DNA of 20,157 nt from a virus. The position numbers and the translations under genes are program-made. Numbering within the stretch: the first letter of the stretch is position 1; each line of letters starts with the position of its first letter. The stretch covers positions 18,346 to 38,502 of the IMG/VR virus record IMGVR_UViG_3300038825_000589; one strand, written 5' to 3'. This document shows positions 942 to 20,157 of the stretch, in pieces. A model generated the notes under the pieces. It worked only from the letters and a program-made list of their open reading frames with translations. It searched no databases and was not told the DNA's origin.

Positions 942-2498
942 TTACTCTTCTTGTGGTTGTTGTGATGCCATGTACTGCTCTTGTGCAGCATTGATAGCAG
1001 GTGCTACAGCAGGTTGACCCAACTTCATCATCATCTCTTGTTGTTGTGCCATCTGCATAGCTTGTTGAATTTCTTCTTCTGTCTTGATCAATCCTTCAGT
1101 CTCAATACCTAACGCTGTAGCTCTTCTTTTGAAGTAGTCAGATACATTAACATATTCTGCAACTGCTTGTGGACCAACGATTTGATTAGCCCCTGCAAGA
1201 AATAGATCAAGCTTTTGTAAATCATTACCTCGTCCTAGTGCTTCAACACCAGTAACAATAGTAGGTTTAACAATGTCTTTAGGTAACTTAGGAAGTCTTC
1301 CTTCTTTGCCCATCCTTGCCATTAACCTAGTAACGACAGGCATTTGAAACTCTTGTGACAATAAAGAATACAGACCACCAAGTGCAGCTTCCAACTCTTG
1401 AGATAACATTCTTATCTCCTCTGCTGTTACTCGTTCTGCATCTCTGACTACACCACTGTTAAGTAAGAAAGCTTGAGATAGTCTATCACTAATCCCATTC
1501 ATTACTCCTTGTGCAGTACGGAAGTCATTGAACTTATTAAGTTGTAAGACAGATACATCTCCATCACTACCTTGTACAATTGCACCGTTAGGAGATTCAG
1601 ATAAAGTCTTAGCCCTGGTTGTACCGTTAGGATTAACCATGAATAATACCTTAGCTGCTGCTGCACTACCTTCGACTATCGCTTTTGTTAACGACTCTAA
1701 AGATTTAAGATCACCAATGTACTCCTCTACAAATCCTCGTCCGTAGTCTTCACCGTCTATTCTTGTATAACGAAGAGGTAGGAACGGAGTCTTCTCGATA
1801 GGATACCTACCTTTTGACTCTTCAATAACAATTCCTTTAACATCTTGTTGTACTACAAATTCATTACCTTCTCTAACTACAGAGGTGTACAAGTCACAGC
1901 TATTCTCTTTCTCTTGACGATATACTTCCTCTCTTACAGACTCAGGTAACATCATTGGAGCAACAGTTTCTTTGATAGCTATGTGTGTTACATTACCCAT
2001 TGGGTCTCTCTTAACACAGTAACGATCTAGTCTGAATACTCTCATCCCGCCGTCATCTGGTAAGTATAACAAAGTATTACCTGTGACCAATAAATTCTTT
2101 AACGCTTCAAACACTCCTACTCGAAATGCTTCAACTTCTACTTCTTGAGATACACTTCGTTCTACATCTGCTAAAGCTTTCTCTAAGTCAGATCGTAATT
2201 GCTCTCCTCCCTCTGGTCCTAACTCCTGCTTTGCTTTATCTAATTCATACCTGTCTATAACAAGACGGAAGAACGGAGCGTTAGGTGGTAACAGTGCTAA
2301 CAGTAATTTAGATGCTAAGTTGTTTACTCCTCTAGCTCCTACTCCTTGATATGGTGTGTAATACTTAGTAGCGTGGCTATGACCATCAGGAGGCATTATG
2401 TAAGGAATAGTCAACTCAGATGAGGTACGACCTCGATCTAAGAAAGACCACCTTTGGTTCTCTAAGGAGTGGTATAGACCTTGTGCTGTTTCTTGCAT
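942..2498 (-). CDS. Portal (head-tail connector) protein, T7 gp8-like
   Basis: At 518 aa this is close to T7 gp8 (536 aa). The N-terminal part has features of the T7-type connector: RTSSELTIPYIMP, then YYTPYQGVGARGVNNLASKL and LLALLPPNAPFFRL (about residues 24-80). The middle contains PFLPLRYTRIDGEDYGRG and the helical segment following it, LKSLESLTKAI, a strongly conserved part of podovirus portals. The C-terminus is rich in glutamine and methionine. Twelve copies should form the ring at one capsid vertex through which DNA is packaged and ejected, and which nucleates assembly with the scaffold encoded next. It starts two bases after the stop of the small upstream gene. Confidence 0.95.
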   Translation of the reverse strand: MQETAQGLYHSLENQRWSFLDRGRTSSELTIPYIMPPDGHSHATKYYTPYQGVGARGVNNLASKLLLALLPPNAPFFRLVIDRYELDKAKQELGPEGGEQLRSDLEKALADVERSVSQEVEVEAFRVGVFEALKNLLVTGNTLLYLPDDGGMRVFRLDRYCVKRDPMGNVTHIAIKETVAPMMLPESVREEVYRQEKENSCDLYTSVVREGNEFVVQQDVKGIVIEESKGRYPIEKTPFLPLRYTRIDGEDYGRGFVEEYIGDLKSLESLTKAIVEGSAAAAKVLFMVNPNGTTRAKTLSESPNGAIVQGSDGDVSVLQLNKFNDFRTAQGVMNGISDRLSQAFLLNSGVVRDAERVTAEEIRMLSQELEAALGGLYSLLSQEFQMPVVTRLMARMGKEGRLPKLPKDIVKPTIVTGVEALGRGNDLQKLDLFLAGANQIVGPQAVAEYVNVSDYFKRRATALGIETEGLIKTEEEIQQAMQMAQQQEMMMKLGQPAVAPAINAAQEQYMASQQPQEE

Positions 2499-2500
2499 TA

Positions 2501-2710
2501 TTAGGTAGTAAGAGTAAAGGCAGCAGTCTCGTACAAAGTAGCGTCAGAAGAACCAGCAGATGTTATAGCAATGTATAACTTCTTATCGGAGGTATTGAAA
2601 AACAACTCTCCTTTTGTAGCTTCCTTCTTAAACTTATCTTCGTCACCTGCTGTATCGCCTGTCTTAATAGCGATAACAAAGTCCTTCCGATGTAACTTAT
2701 TGAGTGCCAT
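2501..2710 (-). CDS. Small predicted virion protein with a tail-fibre-type beta motif
   Basis: A 69-aa protein just before the portal gene. Its centre, KGELFFNTSDKKLYIAI (about residues 34-50), matches the pattern G-E-x-[FY]-x-[ND]-T-x-x-x-K-L-Y common in phage tail fibres and baseplate accessory proteins. The N-terminus (ALNKLHRKDFVIAIKTGD) and the Thr-rich end suggest an all-beta fold. It starts six bases after the stop of the beta-helix protein gene, which suggests it is expressed with it. It could be a fibre or spike cap or a head-tail joining accessory protein. I do not recognise the family. Confidence 0.7.
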   Translation of the reverse strand: MALNKLHRKDFVIAIKTGDTAGDEDKFKKEATKGELFFNTSDKKLYIAITSAGSSDATLYETAAFTLTT

Positions 2711-2716
2711 GACTAA

Positions 2717-3553
2717 TTAACTTGCTGTACCAGCGTTGATGCAAGGTGAGGATGGACGAAGGCGAAAGTCATTGTTTGCAGAGTCCACAAATTGAGGATC
2801 CGTGTCGTAAAGGTTATTTGTTCCCCCTGAATCGTTTGCCGTTCCCATCTGAAAGAAAGAGCAATTAGTGGCAAACTGAGCAAAATCTCCTGCATTATCT
2901 GTCTTCACATTAGCATCGTTATCACACACGAAAATTGTGTTTTTTAACCAGTCGGCATTAGGACTGTCCCCCATCCACCCAATTTTTGTGGTGAGTGTTC
3001 CGTCCGTTCCAAAATTGAACACGCAATTATTAAAAGTCCAATGGTCAGGACCACTAAAAACTCTGAAACCTGACACTGTAATTTTTGGATTAAAACAAGA
3101 GTTGGTAACTTTTATAGAACCCGAAGACCCGTAAAAATACTCACTACCACTACAATCTTTGTGTACGCTCGAAATGTGCAAGCAAGAGTCCATTGAGTTA
3201 TCATTCGCACCAGTTCCATAATTATAAATGGTATTTATATCAGTAAGTTTAAATTTATTAATTTTTATTCCGTCAATTGTAGTTGAACCTATGCCTAGAA
3301 ACCTAGTCGTACCTGTGTCACCCAAAACTGCCTGGTGTAAATTAAGTGCTTCGTAAGTTAAACCACTTGCCCCGTCAAAAGTTTCACTACCTCCAAAAGG
3401 GTAAGAACCATCCAAAAAGTAAATCGTTCCGTTTGCTCCTGCTAAAGTTTCTGCCGTTCCAAGTCCTGAACCACTATTCCAGTTAACTGCGTTTGCTTGA
3501 GAGTCTCCACTTCCGTTACCTGCCCCACTTGGTGATATATATGCTATGCCCAT
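2717..3553 (-). CDS. Predicted right-handed beta-helix tail spike-like protein
   Basis: A 278-aa protein rich in Gly, Asn, Ser, Thr and Asp, with short hydrophobic strands alternating with turns. The opening, AYISPSGAGNGSGDSQANA, and later GTIYFLDGSYPF are typical of secreted and phage parallel beta-helix (pectate-lyase-like) proteins. The end, FRLRPSSPCINAGTAS, matches the closing segment of such helices. In relatives this is usually followed by a D-I-G-A-Y pattern, which is missing here, so the end looks cut short. No lyase catalytic set can be assigned. The likely role is recognition or cleavage of host surface sugar. An AGGAAA site lies 11 bases before the ATG. Its place before the portal gene is unusual, since T7-like phages usually carry fibre genes far downstream of the capsid. 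Confidence 0.7.
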   Translation of the reverse strand: MGIAYISPSGAGNGSGDSQANAVNWNSGSGLGTAETLAGANGTIYFLDGSYPFGGSETFDGASGLTYEALNLHQAVLGDTGTTRFLGIGSTTIDGIKINKFKLTDINTIYNYGTGANDNSMDSCLHISSVHKDCSGSEYFYGSSGSIKVTNSCFNPKITVSGFRVFSGPDHWTFNNCVFNFGTDGTLTTKIGWMGDSPNADWLKNTIFVCDNDANVKTDNAGDFAQFATNCSFFQMGTANDSGGTNNLYDTDPQFVDSANNDFRLRPSSPCINAGTAS

Positions 3554-3574
3554 AATTTAAGTTTCCTAATTTGT

Positions 3575-4618
3575 TTAAGCGATTGAACCGCCACTGATTA
3601 ATAAAGGGGATGAAAATGCTCCGATGTTCGGTGCGTTAAAGCCTTGCTGAAGCGGCAATCCGTTGGGGTCTTTCGCATCACTGTCTCCGCTTATGAGCGA
3701 GTAAGTCCCCGTTGCAGTAGTAATCTCGATGTCAGGTTCGGCTGAATCTTCTACTGCGGAAATACCTGTCGAAATTGCGGATTTACCTGACGAATTAAAT
3801 ATATAAAGTTTTCCGTCAGCATCCGATCCAAGCATTACCGACCGAGTCGGATTATCTACTACTAATAAAGACTGATTAGGATACGCTCCAATGTGTGGGT
3901 TAGCTGTGCCTCTTAAATCTGCGTCTCCAACTACAACATTCTGAAACGAACAAGTCCCATCTCCGTCTTCTCGTAAGAATTTAGTAGCTCCTGTTTCTCC
4001 TGTTGAGGTGACTGCTGTGCCGTCAACTGCTGTGCTTATTCCTGTTAAGTTACTACCGTCAACGGCTGGTAATTGTGCTGACCCATTTAACTGTACGATA
4101 TTATTAGCACTTGTTCCTACATCTAAAGTAGCCGCAGTACCTAGTCCGCTAACATCAGTATTACTAAGTGTTACTGTACCTGTTCTTCCAGCTACCGATT
4201 GCACTGGTGCTCCTGATGAATCGATGAAGTTACTATTATTAGTAAGTGTCGATATGTTATCACCTGGTTGAGTAGCACTATCTGCTAAAGTTCCTTGAGC
4301 TGCTGTAGCGTAGTCTGTGCTTGCTGTTGTGGCTGCCGTGCCTAGTCCTAAGTCTGCTCGTATTGCTGATAACCCTGTAGGATTTATTGTCCCTAAACTT
4401 ACAAAGTTAGTACCGTTAGATGCAATCATCGTACCGTTTGCTTGTGCAATGGTAGAGATGTCAGTCAAGTTAGAAGCTAATGATTGAGTCGCTGCTTGAA
4501 GCTCTGATACCTTTACACTGAAAGTTGTACCTACAGAGGTATCATTGAGAGGCAATATATCGTTAGCGTCTGGTGTAGCATTTAACGGTGTAAGTTCAGA
4601 TATTTTTTTATTAGCCAT
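3575..4618 (-). CDS. Tail fibre-like protein with repetitive middle
   Basis: A 347-aa protein. The N-terminus ANKKISELTPLNATPDANDI, then LPLND and VKVSELQ, is the common opening of phage fibre and tail-accessory proteins. The middle (about 50-200) is a low-complexity, Ala/Gly/Ser/Thr/Asn-rich chain with recurring GTAAT-type units, as in trimeric fibre shafts. The C-terminal third contains DLRGTANPHIGAYP and later NAPNIGAFSSP, two copies of an N-x-x-IGA-[YF] pattern that normally closes beta-helix proteins, although no beta-helix precedes them here. With the next gene it probably forms an adhesion module. The initiation region (CGATAAATGG) lacks a good Shine-Dalgarno site. Confidence 0.72.
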   Translation of the reverse strand: MANKKISELTPLNATPDANDILPLNDTSVGTTFSVKVSELQAATQSLASNLTDISTIAQANGTMIASNGTNFVSLGTINPTGLSAIRADLGLGTAATTASTDYATAAQGTLADSATQPGDNISTLTNNSNFIDSSGAPVQSVAGRTGTVTLSNTDVSGLGTAATLDVGTSANNIVQLNGSAQLPAVDGSNLTGISTAVDGTAVTSTGETGATKFLREDGDGTCSFQNVVVGDADLRGTANPHIGAYPNQSLLVVDNPTRSVMLGSDADGKLYIFNSSGKSAISTGISAVEDSAEPDIEITTATGTYSLISGDSDAKDPNGLPLQQGFNAPNIGAFSSPLLISGGSIA

Positions 4619-13575: not shown

Positions 13576-15951
13576 TTATGAGAATATATACTGACAGTCG
13601 TTAAGTGCCGACACATCTAGTGTGCCAAGTTCAGGGCTGTCTTCCAGTGTACATCCTCTTTGTGCTTCAATCTCGTCCTTGAACTTGTTGACAAGATCGT
13701 CGCTAAAGTGTTGTTCGTAAATCTCTCTTAGTTGTTGGTGCATTTTCGGTGCGTTAGGGCTTTGAGTTGCAAAGCTATCGTGTATACTTGCTATACAATA
13801 ATCACTTTTGCAAGCTAATTCCATCATAACAGATGAGTCAAGACTGTGTATATAATTAGGTACAATAGCTCGTGCCATTCGTTTACTACTTATACCTTTC
13901 TGTCTGTTGTTAAAAGAAAGAATAGTGTTTTGCATATTAAGAATGCTGTTCACTTTAATTATTGTTTGATCGTATAGTGCTTGTACAATTTCCAATCCAA
14001 AAGGTGTGGTCCACTTCAAAGGTTTGTCAGTCCTAGCTATACCTTTAAACCACTTCATCAATTCTAAATGTGGTTGGATTAAAGCGTTGGCTTTGTCGTT
14101 GATTAAAGAAGCTAAGTATATCATAGCCTCGTTAAAATCTTCCTTGCTGAACGGACTGCCTAGTCCCTCCTTAAGTCGTTTAACAACAGCATCTTCCAGT
14201 GCATCTTTACTTGTGTATCCATTCATTCCAAACGGTTTACACATCACTATCTTCTTAGTAAAGCTACGATCTATTCCAAACTTTAACCAATCTCCAGCCA
14301 AGCTGTTCTTACTTTTGTCTTTCATTAAACAATCGTACACTTGATTAGCTACTTCCTGATATATATCCTGTGGTTTCTGGCTAGGTAATAAGTTAACGTG
14401 GTGTCCAGACTTTTCATCTCTTGTTAACAAAGATAGAATCTGTATGCCGTTACAACTAGCGTCCATGTGACAAGGCAACCTAGTTTCAAATCCCCATCCT
14501 TGCTGTTTAAACTCAGCGTATTCAAAACAAAAGTGTATGAAAGCCCAAGGGTCACTCGCTTCTTTCCACCAAGTACACTCACAAGGATCATTTGCACTTT
14601 CAAGTATCAATTCCTTCTTCTTATCTATCCAAGCTAATCGTTCTTCATAGCTTCCTTTTACTCCGAAGACATTAGCTCCGTGAATCCTTAACCATCTACT
14701 ATCTTCATCGTTATTTATAGGTACTCCTTTAGCAAATTGTAAAGCACTCCTTCCAAAGTCACATGATTGTGGGTTAACATAACTAGGTATTGAATACACT
14801 CTCCCTCTGTAGTCCATCTGATAAGGGAAATAGAACTCATCCATCTCAGCGTAGCGTTTTGCAATGTTGAGTATCTTCAAGCATCTCATACGCTGTCCGT
14901 TACTCCTTAAATTATATTCGTATATCTCTTTTTGTCTACGCTTCCATTCAGTGAAAGCTACTGGGTCTGTGTCTGCTAGGTTAGGTACAATATCAAGTGG
15001 TTGTAACAACTCACTCTTCTCCATTCCTCCTATAGTTAGGTCCTTACTCCACGCCCAAGTCATAAGATTTAACATCTTCGGATTGATCTTCCAAGCTACT
15101 CGTTGCAGTCGGTTAAGTGGTTCGTAAGCTGGGCTAAGATCTCTGTGTTTTATACCATCGTTGTTCTTGATCTTCATTATAGGAAGAGTAGGTAGTCCTT
15201 CACTATTGTATCCTCCTCCGTAGTTATCTATCCAATCAACAGGTGGTTTAGGTGTGGCTAAATAGAACGGACGAATGACCTCACAATTCTCATCGTATTT
15301 ATTTACCCAAGCATACAAGTCTTTATTAGGAGCTATGACTTTCCGTTTAGCAGTGGTGTAAGTGTACTTGATTTTAACGTGGAATAAATTAGTTTGCATC
15401 CTTATCAATTCAATTAACCACGAACCAAGCATGATCTTATTACGCTTACTCCAAAGTTCAAACCTTTGATACCTTCCTTGTTTGTGATACTTTCTTTCTT
15501 TATCCCAGAACTTATTAACAAATCTATTCCTTGTAAGTACATCCTTTTGATCTCGTTTTAATAACAACCAATCACTGTCCGTCACATTCTCTTTAAAGTA
15601 ACGGACGCGTACTTCATCCTCCAAAGCTTTAGCTACTAAAAAGGAAGCCTCGGAAATGTAAGGTTCATTAGGAAGGATATCAAACAATACCTTAACCCCT
15701 AGAAAAGCTACAACGCTAGGTTCTAAGTCCCATATATAAGGCAGCCAAACAGGTACAGGTGCGTTAGGTCTGGCGTTGTCCTCAAAGAATTTATTTACAG
15801 CGTGTTCGATAGGTGCGTGTACTTCTCTTCCTAACTTCTTGTAAGCTGGTAATTCAGAGTTATATCCTTGGGCTTTGTAAATCTCTTGAGCTTTTCTATA
15901 CCTAGCTTTACCCCAAGAAATCATAGTTGTGTCGCTTTTATCTTCTTTCAT
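13576..15951 (-). CDS. Single-subunit DNA-directed RNA polymerase (T7 gp1-like)
   Basis: About 791 aa (T7 gp1 is 883), so the N-terminal promoter-binding part is shortened. FPYQMDYRGRVYSIP (about 375-389) matches the T7 DWRGR segment. MDASCNGIQ (Asp496) is motif A. RSFTKKIVMCKPFG (Arg561, Lys565, Phe573) is motif B. PNYIHSLDSS and IHDSF (His723, Asp724) are motif C. At Phe573, T7 has Tyr639, the residue that rejects dNTPs. The segment PLKWTTPFGLEIVQALYD precedes the specificity-loop region. It should transcribe the middle and late genes of the phage. The ATG comes one base after the stop of the small upstream gene, so it is translated as part of the early operon. Confidence 0.97.
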   Translation of the reverse strand: MKEDKSDTTMISWGKARYRKAQEIYKAQGYNSELPAYKKLGREVHAPIEHAVNKFFEDNARPNAPVPVWLPYIWDLEPSVVAFLGVKVLFDILPNEPYISEASFLVAKALEDEVRVRYFKENVTDSDWLLLKRDQKDVLTRNRFVNKFWDKERKYHKQGRYQRFELWSKRNKIMLGSWLIELIRMQTNLFHVKIKYTYTTAKRKVIAPNKDLYAWVNKYDENCEVIRPFYLATPKPPVDWIDNYGGGYNSEGLPTLPIMKIKNNDGIKHRDLSPAYEPLNRLQRVAWKINPKMLNLMTWAWSKDLTIGGMEKSELLQPLDIVPNLADTDPVAFTEWKRRQKEIYEYNLRSNGQRMRCLKILNIAKRYAEMDEFYFPYQMDYRGRVYSIPSYVNPQSCDFGRSALQFAKGVPINNDEDSRWLRIHGANVFGVKGSYEERLAWIDKKKELILESANDPCECTWWKEASDPWAFIHFCFEYAEFKQQGWGFETRLPCHMDASCNGIQILSLLTRDEKSGHHVNLLPSQKPQDIYQEVANQVYDCLMKDKSKNSLAGDWLKFGIDRSFTKKIVMCKPFGMNGYTSKDALEDAVVKRLKEGLGSPFSKEDFNEAMIYLASLINDKANALIQPHLELMKWFKGIARTDKPLKWTTPFGLEIVQALYDQTIIKVNSILNMQNTILSFNNRQKGISSKRMARAIVPNYIHSLDSSVMMELACKSDYCIASIHDSFATQSPNAPKMHQQLREIYEQHFSDDLVNKFKDEIEAQRGCTLEDSPELGTLDVSALNDCQYIFS

Positions 15952-18861: not shown

Positions 18862-19566
18862 TTAATTAGAGAGTGCTTGTTCCATTGCTCTTTTCTTTTT
18901 AGAGCCGTGCGGATTAATCCAAATAGATTTAGCTCCGATACGATTACCTTTGCAAAGTTGGCACTGATCGCACGATAAGCCTTTACTATCTGCAAGGCAT
19001 TCTATCGTATCCTTTGGTTGGGTTGGGCTAACATGAAAGTATCTTAGATTCTTTTCCTTTGCACGTCTTACACTATCGTTCGTCTCAGTTGATGCCATAA
19101 AATAATTTCCGTATGCAGTAGCTCGTTCTTTACTCATCTCTTTCCAGTCGTGAAAATATCCAGTCCATCCGTCGCACGCTTCTGTTATCATTTTAACAAT
19201 ACTTAAAGGAATGAGACTAGGATTGCCATAAGCTCCAAAGCGAACCTTGCGACCATTGAAAACATTAGAGTAAAGGAAAGGATCCAATTTAGGATAAGAA
19301 TTCTTTTTATAAGCTTTCCAAATACTATTTGGAGCTTGTCCTACATTAACATAGCATCCATTCCCACTTGCAAACTTGCAACCTGTACAAATCGTGGAAG
19401 CATCTAAACCACTTTTTACACCATCAACTGGTGAATGATCAGACAATAGAATCCATAATTGAATCATGTTACCTGTCTTGCGATTAGATGTTTTTAAGGT
19501 GGCAATTACGGCAAACTTTTCGCCGTTCTTACTACCTTCATAAATTATAAATCCGTTTGGTTTCAT
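18862..19566 (-). CDS. Cys-rich phage protein (DUF7227/gp88-like), possible iron-sulfur enzyme
   Basis: A 234-aa protein. STICTGCKFASGNGCYVN (about residues 59-76) gives a C-x2-C-x6-C-Y cluster, and SCDQCQLCKGNRIGAKSIW (about residues 198-216) gives C-x2-C-x2-C. Between them, FGAYGNPSLIPLSIVKMI and later WTGYFHDWKEM, ASTETND and RYFHVS have the beta/alpha rhythm of a partial TIM barrel. The layout recalls radical-SAM-like phage families such as gp88, in which Cys triads hold iron-sulfur clusters. That is a hypothesis from spacing, not a proven assignment. The gene is the second in the early region and starts one base after the stop of the first. Confidence 0.72.
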   Translation of the reverse strand: MKPNGFIIYEGSKNGEKFAVIATLKTSNRKTGNMIQLWILLSDHSPVDGVKSGLDASTICTGCKFASGNGCYVNVGQAPNSIWKAYKKNSYPKLDPFLYSNVFNGRKVRFGAYGNPSLIPLSIVKMITEACDGWTGYFHDWKEMSKERATAYGNYFMASTETNDSVRRAKEKNLRYFHVSPTQPKDTIECLADSKGLSCDQCQLCKGNRIGAKSIWINPHGSKKKRAMEQALSN

Positions 19567-19567
19567 A

Positions 19568-19759
19568 TTATGCGATCCAATCGTTTTGATGTTTAAATCT
19601 ATATTGAAAAGAATATCTATCAGGTCGATTTTTAATTAATCTTGATTTCAATAATTTGCGATAATTTAACATTGATTCCTCTAAATTTTGGCTTTCACTG
19701 GTAATCCAATCGCCATTTAATCTATAGCGAGTTAATAAAGTTTTATAATCGTTTTTCAT
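19568..19759 (-). CDS. First early gene, 63-aa basic protein
   Basis: Starts MKNDYKTLLTRYRLNGDWIT and ends RYSFQYRFKHQNDWIA. It is rich in Arg, Lys, Asn, Tyr and Leu. The NGDW and NDWI patterns and basic helices could bind nucleic acid. It lies just after the AT-rich control region and is the first gene read in the leftward direction, so it should be made earliest after infection. No Shine-Dalgarno site is seen before the ATG. The family is not recognised. Confidence 0.6.
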   Translation of the reverse strand: MKNDYKTLLTRYRLNGDWITSESQNLEESMLNYRKLLKSRLIKNRPDRYSFQYRFKHQNDWIA

Positions 19760-19933
19760 TTTAATATTTATATTTTGTTGGTTGTTTGGTTAAAATAAAT
19801 ATGATTTGCTTTAAATCAAAAATGTCAAAAGTTGTAAAGCTTTTATTTTTATATTTGTTGTAAGTTGTTGATTTTACTTAATAGAAAAAAAATAAAAAAA
19901 GTTTTATAGTTTTATTGATAAAATGAAATTAAA

Positions 19934-20015
19934 AGATTTTGACGAATCAAATTAAAGAGTTTGATTGATACTAAATAGAGACTTTGACTAATGATTGTTA
20001 TAGACTTTGACTAAT
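19934..20015 (+). repeat. Four 14-bp direct repeats at 22-23-bp spacing (iterons or operators)
   Basis: On the plus strand, copies start at 19934 (AGATTTTGACGAAT), 19956 (AGAGTTTGATTGAT), 19979 (AGACTTTGACTAAT) and 20002 (AGACTTTGACTAAT). The last two are identical, and the other two match at most positions. Starts are 22, 23 and 23 bases apart, about two helical turns, so a protein could bind all on one face of the helix. Confidence 0.72.
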
Positions 20016-20051
20016 CAAAATTAAACGAAAAAGAAATAACAAATTTACAAG

Positions 20052-20067
20052 TGATAACAGATTATCA
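20052..20067. repeat. Perfect 6-bp dyad near the right edge
   Basis: TGATAA at 20052-20057 and TTATCA at 20062-20067 flank a four-base centre (CAGA). It is a small operator-like palindrome. It could also arise by chance in AT-rich DNA. Confidence 0.4.
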
Positions 20068-20079
20068 ATAGCAACCAAG

Positions 20080-20113
20080 ACGCAAATAACCCTGTTGATC
20101 TGTTGATTTGCGT
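20080..20113. repeat. 8-bp inverted repeat near the right edge
   Basis: ACGCAAAT at 20080-20087 and ATTTGCGT at 20106-20113 form an inverted repeat with an 18-base centre. The centre overlaps a tandem TGTTGAT pair (20093-20099 and 20101-20107). Confidence 0.42.
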
Positions 20114-20157
20114 TTGATCTAATAATGAGCTTTAACAAGGTTAAATTGATAGACTAT

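Follow-up and report, generated by a model that had tools for sequence, protein, structure and literature searches.

In the usual description of T7-like phages, constitutive host promoters fire on entry. Exchangeable regulatory sites are known from phage immunity systems, such as the lambdoid operators and the stoperators of cluster A mycobacteriophages, which are read by a phage repressor, and iteron-type replication origins are known to combine AT-rich DNA with adjoining direct repeats at a spacing of about 22 bp. The corynephage tox gene is controlled by host DtxR through a single operator at this prophage cargo gene, and repression is the usual mode of the DtxR/MntR family. At S. mutans mntH, the DtxR-family protein SloR is reported to bind cooperatively to several sites (PMC12096823). 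Besides, single Pho boxes are present at auxiliary and replication genes of T4-like cyanophages, and gel-shift evidence shows that host PhoBR acts on cyanophage genes (PMC10976474).

The window, i.e., the whole stretch of 20,157 nucleotides analysed here, corresponds to bases 18346–38502 of a 38,502-base IMG/VR virus record from a marine T7-like phage. It contains four phased repeats, which on balance we regard as an operator array for a host DtxR/MntR-family protein, located in an exchangeable slot of the phage early control region. The array resembles the DtxR/MntR operators of bacterial Mn/Zn transport genes in having a palindromic box like that at mntR, mntH and ZnuA-type promoters, but in the phage the sites stand ahead of early genes, half-sites are part of their phased arrangement, and the set is exchangeable. 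As in the PhoBR–cyanophage case, a host nutrient regulator (here a predicted one) would have sites ahead of lytic-phage genes, but the T7-like phage has an array instead of single boxes, placed in the early control region and swapped between relatives. Corynephage tox likewise involves a host metalloregulator of this family acting on phage DNA (in our case a predicted one), but its operator is no array for early control. Immunity operators, too, are diversifying regulatory sites that pass between otherwise similar phages, but they are read by a phage repressor, and none was found here. In contrast to iteron-type origins, the array is not conserved in close relatives, its outer copies are palindromic and no initiator gene was identified.

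In the literature searched, with most subscription papers outside its scope, MntR/DtxR arrays at the early genes of phages were not described. That phage genes can come under host regulators is already known; the present case differs in the phased array at T7-like early genes, in the exchange of this array for other words in a fixed slot and in its occurrence in a second, unrelated family. If the slot does include a host metalloregulator box and sister phages do use sigma-54, early expression of T7-like phages would hang on the nutrient state of the host, and phages would trade that dependence. The slot words would then name host regulators and give a handle on the hosts of uncultured phages.

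Repeat Array and Its Surroundings

An earlier note on this DNA had described four phased 14-bp copies, and all were found at the spacing it gave: the 14-mer AGACTTTGACTAAT starts at 19934, 19956, 19979, and 20002 (n = 4), i.e., in steps of 22, 23, and 23 bp. The description of the copies as near-identical holds for two exact ones but is overstated for the other two, which have 2 and 3 mismatches. The copies, numbered in the sense of the genes, are:

20002–20015, plus strand: repeat copy 1, exact AGACTTTGACTAAT, extended by its flank to the full palindrome TTTGACTAATCAAA at 20006–20019
19979–19992, plus strand: repeat copy 2, exact AGACTTTGACTAAT; half-site
19956–19969, plus strand: repeat copy 3, AGAGTTTGATTGAT, 3 mismatches to AGACTTTGACTAAT; half-site
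19934–19947, plus strand: repeat copy 4, AGATTTTGACGAAT, 2 mismatches; with its flank it forms the palindrome TTTGACGAATCAAA at 19938–19951

The outer copies (positions 0 and 68 of the array) complete the palindrome TTTGATTARTCAAA, a property absent from the earlier note, and the copies at 23 and 46 are half-sites; the window has near-complete palindromes at just two of its four copies. Copy 3 was found to be similarly degenerate in related phages. The phased score of the four 14-mers was 37 of 42, compared to at most 31 when the intergenic block (22% GC) was dinucleotide-shuffled 120 times; since the shuffles stayed below the observed score and the register is conserved, a chance origin of the array was rejected. 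A search elsewhere in the genome, which had been proposed as a check, showed this to be the single array of the source phage. By its anatomy, the stretch is a putative operator array and not simply a direct repeat.

The surrounding features are:

13576–15951, minus strand: T7-type RNA polymerase, the query for gathering relatives
19568–19759, minus strand: first early ORF, 63 aa, without confident family match
19760–19933, minus strand: AT-rich leader, separating the array from the first early gene
19861–19873, minus strand: IHF consensus match (sense AATCAACAACTTA), downstream of the array
20017–20053, minus strand: core between two exchangeable slots (sense CACTTGTAAATTTG...CGTTTAATTTT), conserved in nearer relatives
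20052–20067, no strand: slot A dyad TGATAA-CAGA-TTATCA, kept in some relatives, with other words elsewhere
20081–20112, no strand: slot A dyad CGCAAAT-N18-ATTTGCG, the loop of which holds a ATCAACAGATCAACA repeat

The convincing genes all lie on the minus strand in T7-like order, and those for a T7-type RNA polymerase, SSB, a T7-type primase-helicase, PolA, and a head-tail connector were recognised. In the direction of transcription the array follows the core and precedes the leader; it separates the late genes from the early ones, with the contig end about 140 bp away. Read in gene sense, the repeats precede the first early gene, as the earlier note had it, and its AT-rich gene-free block (19760–20157, 22% GC, without a convincing gene) and two nearby dyads (20052–20067 and 20081–20112) were likewise present. 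The second early gene (18862–19566, minus strand) matches PHROG 2554, of unknown function; distant relatives occur in many phages, one of them annotated as an antirestriction protein. Comparison with the relative L024 showed that the two ends of the record (window position 20157 and the left end) nearly meet, with about 3 bases missing; the record therefore appears to be a circular assembly that is almost complete and was opened within the control region.

Two kinds of promoter were considered and rejected. A Bacteroidota −33/−7 promoter at 20040–20068 fits the pattern TTG-N18-TAAATTTG, but this pattern occurs about 1.2 times per shuffled genome and was therefore not relied on. For promoters of the phage RNA polymerase no fitting repeated intergenic motif was found, and the array occurs once per genome.

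Exchange of Words in Related T7-Like Phages

Relatives were gathered by the polymerase, the repeat, the adjoining core, and a landmark located where the late genes end. The register 0/23/46/68 was kept in 14 distinct arrays from related T7-like phages, some of which have one or two copies outside the search pattern, and a short one comprises two copies, 22 bp apart. In most relatives the last copy is ACTTTGATTAGTCAAAGT, a full palindrome. The repeat sought in relatives, as the earlier note had proposed, was thus recovered in register in these arrays, but other words occupy the slot in close relatives: in L001, L005, L024, and L041, with polymerases 94–97% identical, the repeats are replaced by CCATATTTGG pairs, TAGGTAA words or others.

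A comparison of 54 control regions showed differing words on both sides of the core, the core itself being conserved in nearer relatives. The upstream words pair freely with the repeats. The partners found were TACACGAGTAAAGCA together with a TGATAAT-type dyad; TGCAAGT and a word of TGACGTCA type; pairs of TTGAGAC; and the set seen in the window. In slot A of five loci (L003, L006, L013, L208, and L218) the TTGAGAC direct repeats stand 11 bp apart, in a geometry that resembles PhoB/OmpR-type response-regulator sites. In L230 the core is followed by about six ATCAAACT-type repeats at 22–23 bp, a longer array of degenerate copies that is apparently an eroded or early form of the window's array.

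Sigma-54-like elements, defined as TGGCAY-N5-TTGC with at least 8 of 10 consensus positions, were present in 10/10 regions of three word classes (the TAGGTAA class being L005 and L006) compared to 0/17 repeat-class regions, with the promoter of the sigma-54 classes situated 3′ of the slot. Since word class tracks promoter type, the words behave like binding sites for different regulators. The elements suggest sigma-54-dependent early transcription in the sister T7-like phages; for the repeats read as a sigma-54 enhancer (UAS) array, no downstream sigma-54 promoter was present in any of the 17 repeat-class regions. The elements are located in the control regions of L213, L214, L220, L228, L212, L187, L192, L016, L005, and L006, downstream of TGTGYCA-type, TGTATAAANNCTATACA-type, and TAGGTAA-type dyad arrays. 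IHF consensus matches numbered 1.54 per control region compared to 0.094 in shuffles, an excess of about 16 times. None of the early genes compared in the T7-like group tracks the presence of the array.

Occurrence of the Palindrome at Bacterial Metal Transport Genes

The palindrome GACTTTGAYTARTCAAAGTC was found at eight places in 84,980 prokaryote genomes, five of them in Opitutae, and by our estimate about one would be expected in random sequence. One site separates a DtxR-family gene from an Nramp gene, two are located directly 5′ of ZnuA-type binding-protein genes, and two of the eight places (L254 and L256) are without Mn/Zn or DtxR gene context. One-mismatch sites in the same genomes were located 5′ of further Mn/Zn ABC genes, and one bacterial locus, L265, has two boxes 22 bp apart. 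In L253, the operon headed by the box encodes a Mn/Zn ABC permease that carries a fused DtxR-type metal-binding domain (2404–3699, minus strand).

Nramp upstream regions on their own contained few boxes (L272 and L297), and ZnuA-type promoters were therefore tested. The box was present with up to 4 mismatches in 8/30 promoters of Opitutales ZnuA-type genes, one of the eight being already known (L467 is L252), compared to a mean of about 0.18 for 188 palindromes of the same composition, among which the sole high scorer was the same motif. At L475 the box is placed between a DtxR-family gene and a transporter gene. A TGCAA-type box was not found at the ZnuA-type promoters. The exact box was present in only 2/286 genomes of the bacterial class and is therefore not general in the class. 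We conclude from these gene contexts that the palindrome is a predicted DtxR/MntR-type metalloregulator box in Verrucomicrobiota and Planctomycetota, located beside mntR, mntH, and Mn/Zn ABC genes; the metal sensed by the regulator that reads it is likewise inferred from gene context. A palindrome like the box at mntR/mntH/znuA-type promoters is formed by two of the four copies in the window.

Presence of the Box in a Second Phage Family

Scanning for phased copies also turned up contigs of an unrelated phage group, with a terminase 75% identical to that of 'Phage C75C1' and without a match to the T7-type polymerase. In 5/59 loci, 6–8 boxes exactly 22 bp apart were found ahead of the terminase-adjacent gene. 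Most loci of this family with 95–98% identical proteins are without boxes, and some members bear TGCAAGTAACTTGCA-type repeats. Tandem TTTGACTAATCAAAGT-type boxes were seen at L367, L371, L373, L375, and L379 (also at L338, L353, L356, and L360). Both phage families have the box in common, besides TTGCAAGTAASTTGC and an IHF-like word.

Predicted Function of the Array

A MntR homolog was not found among the searched phage ORFs, the two phage families have no relevant protein in common and no early gene tracks the array; the simplest account is therefore that the binding protein is the host's. We infer that the host of the phage makes a DtxR/MntR-like regulator, which binds the array and controls early transcription. 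The metal-loaded protein would bind the two full palindromes, and the half-sites would be bound cooperatively by the same regulator. Bound regulator would alter transcription of the early genes, most likely by repression, following the precedent of the family, and it may instead activate, or the array may serve as a decoy. Among the readings offered by the earlier note, that of a repressor or operator site is supported by the palindromic boxes, the conserved phasing and the match to the bacterial metalloregulator box.

These results suggest that phages may wire their first genes to host regulators and exchange the wiring. We tentatively propose, as a possibility somewhat short of even, that unrelated marine phage families trade operator words in fixed slots, each lineage's early transcription being tied to a different host regulator. 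Equally tentative is the view that these regulators could include a DtxR/MntR metalloregulator, sigma-54 enhancer-binding proteins and others, in a combinatorial, horizontally traded input layer that overlies phage genomes conserved in other respects.

It is unlikely that the repeats are instead operators for a regulator encoded by the phage, a prophage or a satellite, i.e., an immunity-like system in which the slot is exchanged as phages escape each other's repressors. The slot is indeed replaced among phages otherwise 94–97% identical in polymerase, and TACACGAGTAAAGCA, the arrays of which were found only in this T7-like group, was absent from 266 Verrucomicrobiae genomes, so that not every slot word need be a chromosomal operator. 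For some slot words an immunity-type explanation stands, and the phage may encode a novel repressor. However, no early gene follows the array, the searched phage ORFs contain no MntR homolog, the tested early ORFs were without regulator family match and the box is that of a chromosomal metal regulon.

We consider it quite improbable that the array, once replicated, acts by titration, soaking up the host metalloregulator and derepressing metal uptake, with the phage genes left uncontrolled. Several phased boxes, up to eight in the second phage family, are what such a sponge would have, but the arrays stand in intergenic control regions ahead of genes, other word classes of the same slot are coupled to promoter type and the T7-like array has just two full palindromes.

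The earlier note had also proposed an initiator site or origin. The 22–23 bp phasing with an AT-rich flank, an iteron-like feature, and the site ahead of the early genes would suit iterons for a phage or host initiator beside an AT-rich unwinding region, and GC skew is uninformative on this point because all genes run one way. Such a function is nevertheless very unlikely: the array is missing from close relatives with the same replication genes, those with 97% identical RNA polymerase included, which carry other words in the slot; in bacteria this box is the operator of a metal regulon, found at the promoters of Mn/Zn transport genes; and none of the early-region genes compared, for an initiator or otherwise, tracks the array. 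A role in packaging or in the processing of concatemers close to the genome end, on the model of the short repeats beside the T7 terminal repeat, would fit the position between late and early genes near the contig end but is scarcely credible, as close relatives have unrelated words in this place, the repeats are palindromic and the gene context in the second phage family is different.

Possible Hosts and Further Shared Words

The box of the repeats points to Verrucomicrobiota or Planctomycetota as host, and a core element resembles a Bacteroidota −7 element at chance frequency. Polymerase matches were sought in 223 Opitutales genomes and none was found, a negative that is uninformative as to the host, and no tRNA genes were found as a host clue in the phage.

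Another word of both phage families is TTGCAAGTWACTTGCAA (phage loci L392, L394, L395, and L403; also L481). It occurs twice in one Opitutales genome (G394; L480 and L483), in one case 5′ of a TonB-dependent receptor gene. A variant is followed by a weak MerC match, and the word is perhaps a FUR-family (Zur-like) box.
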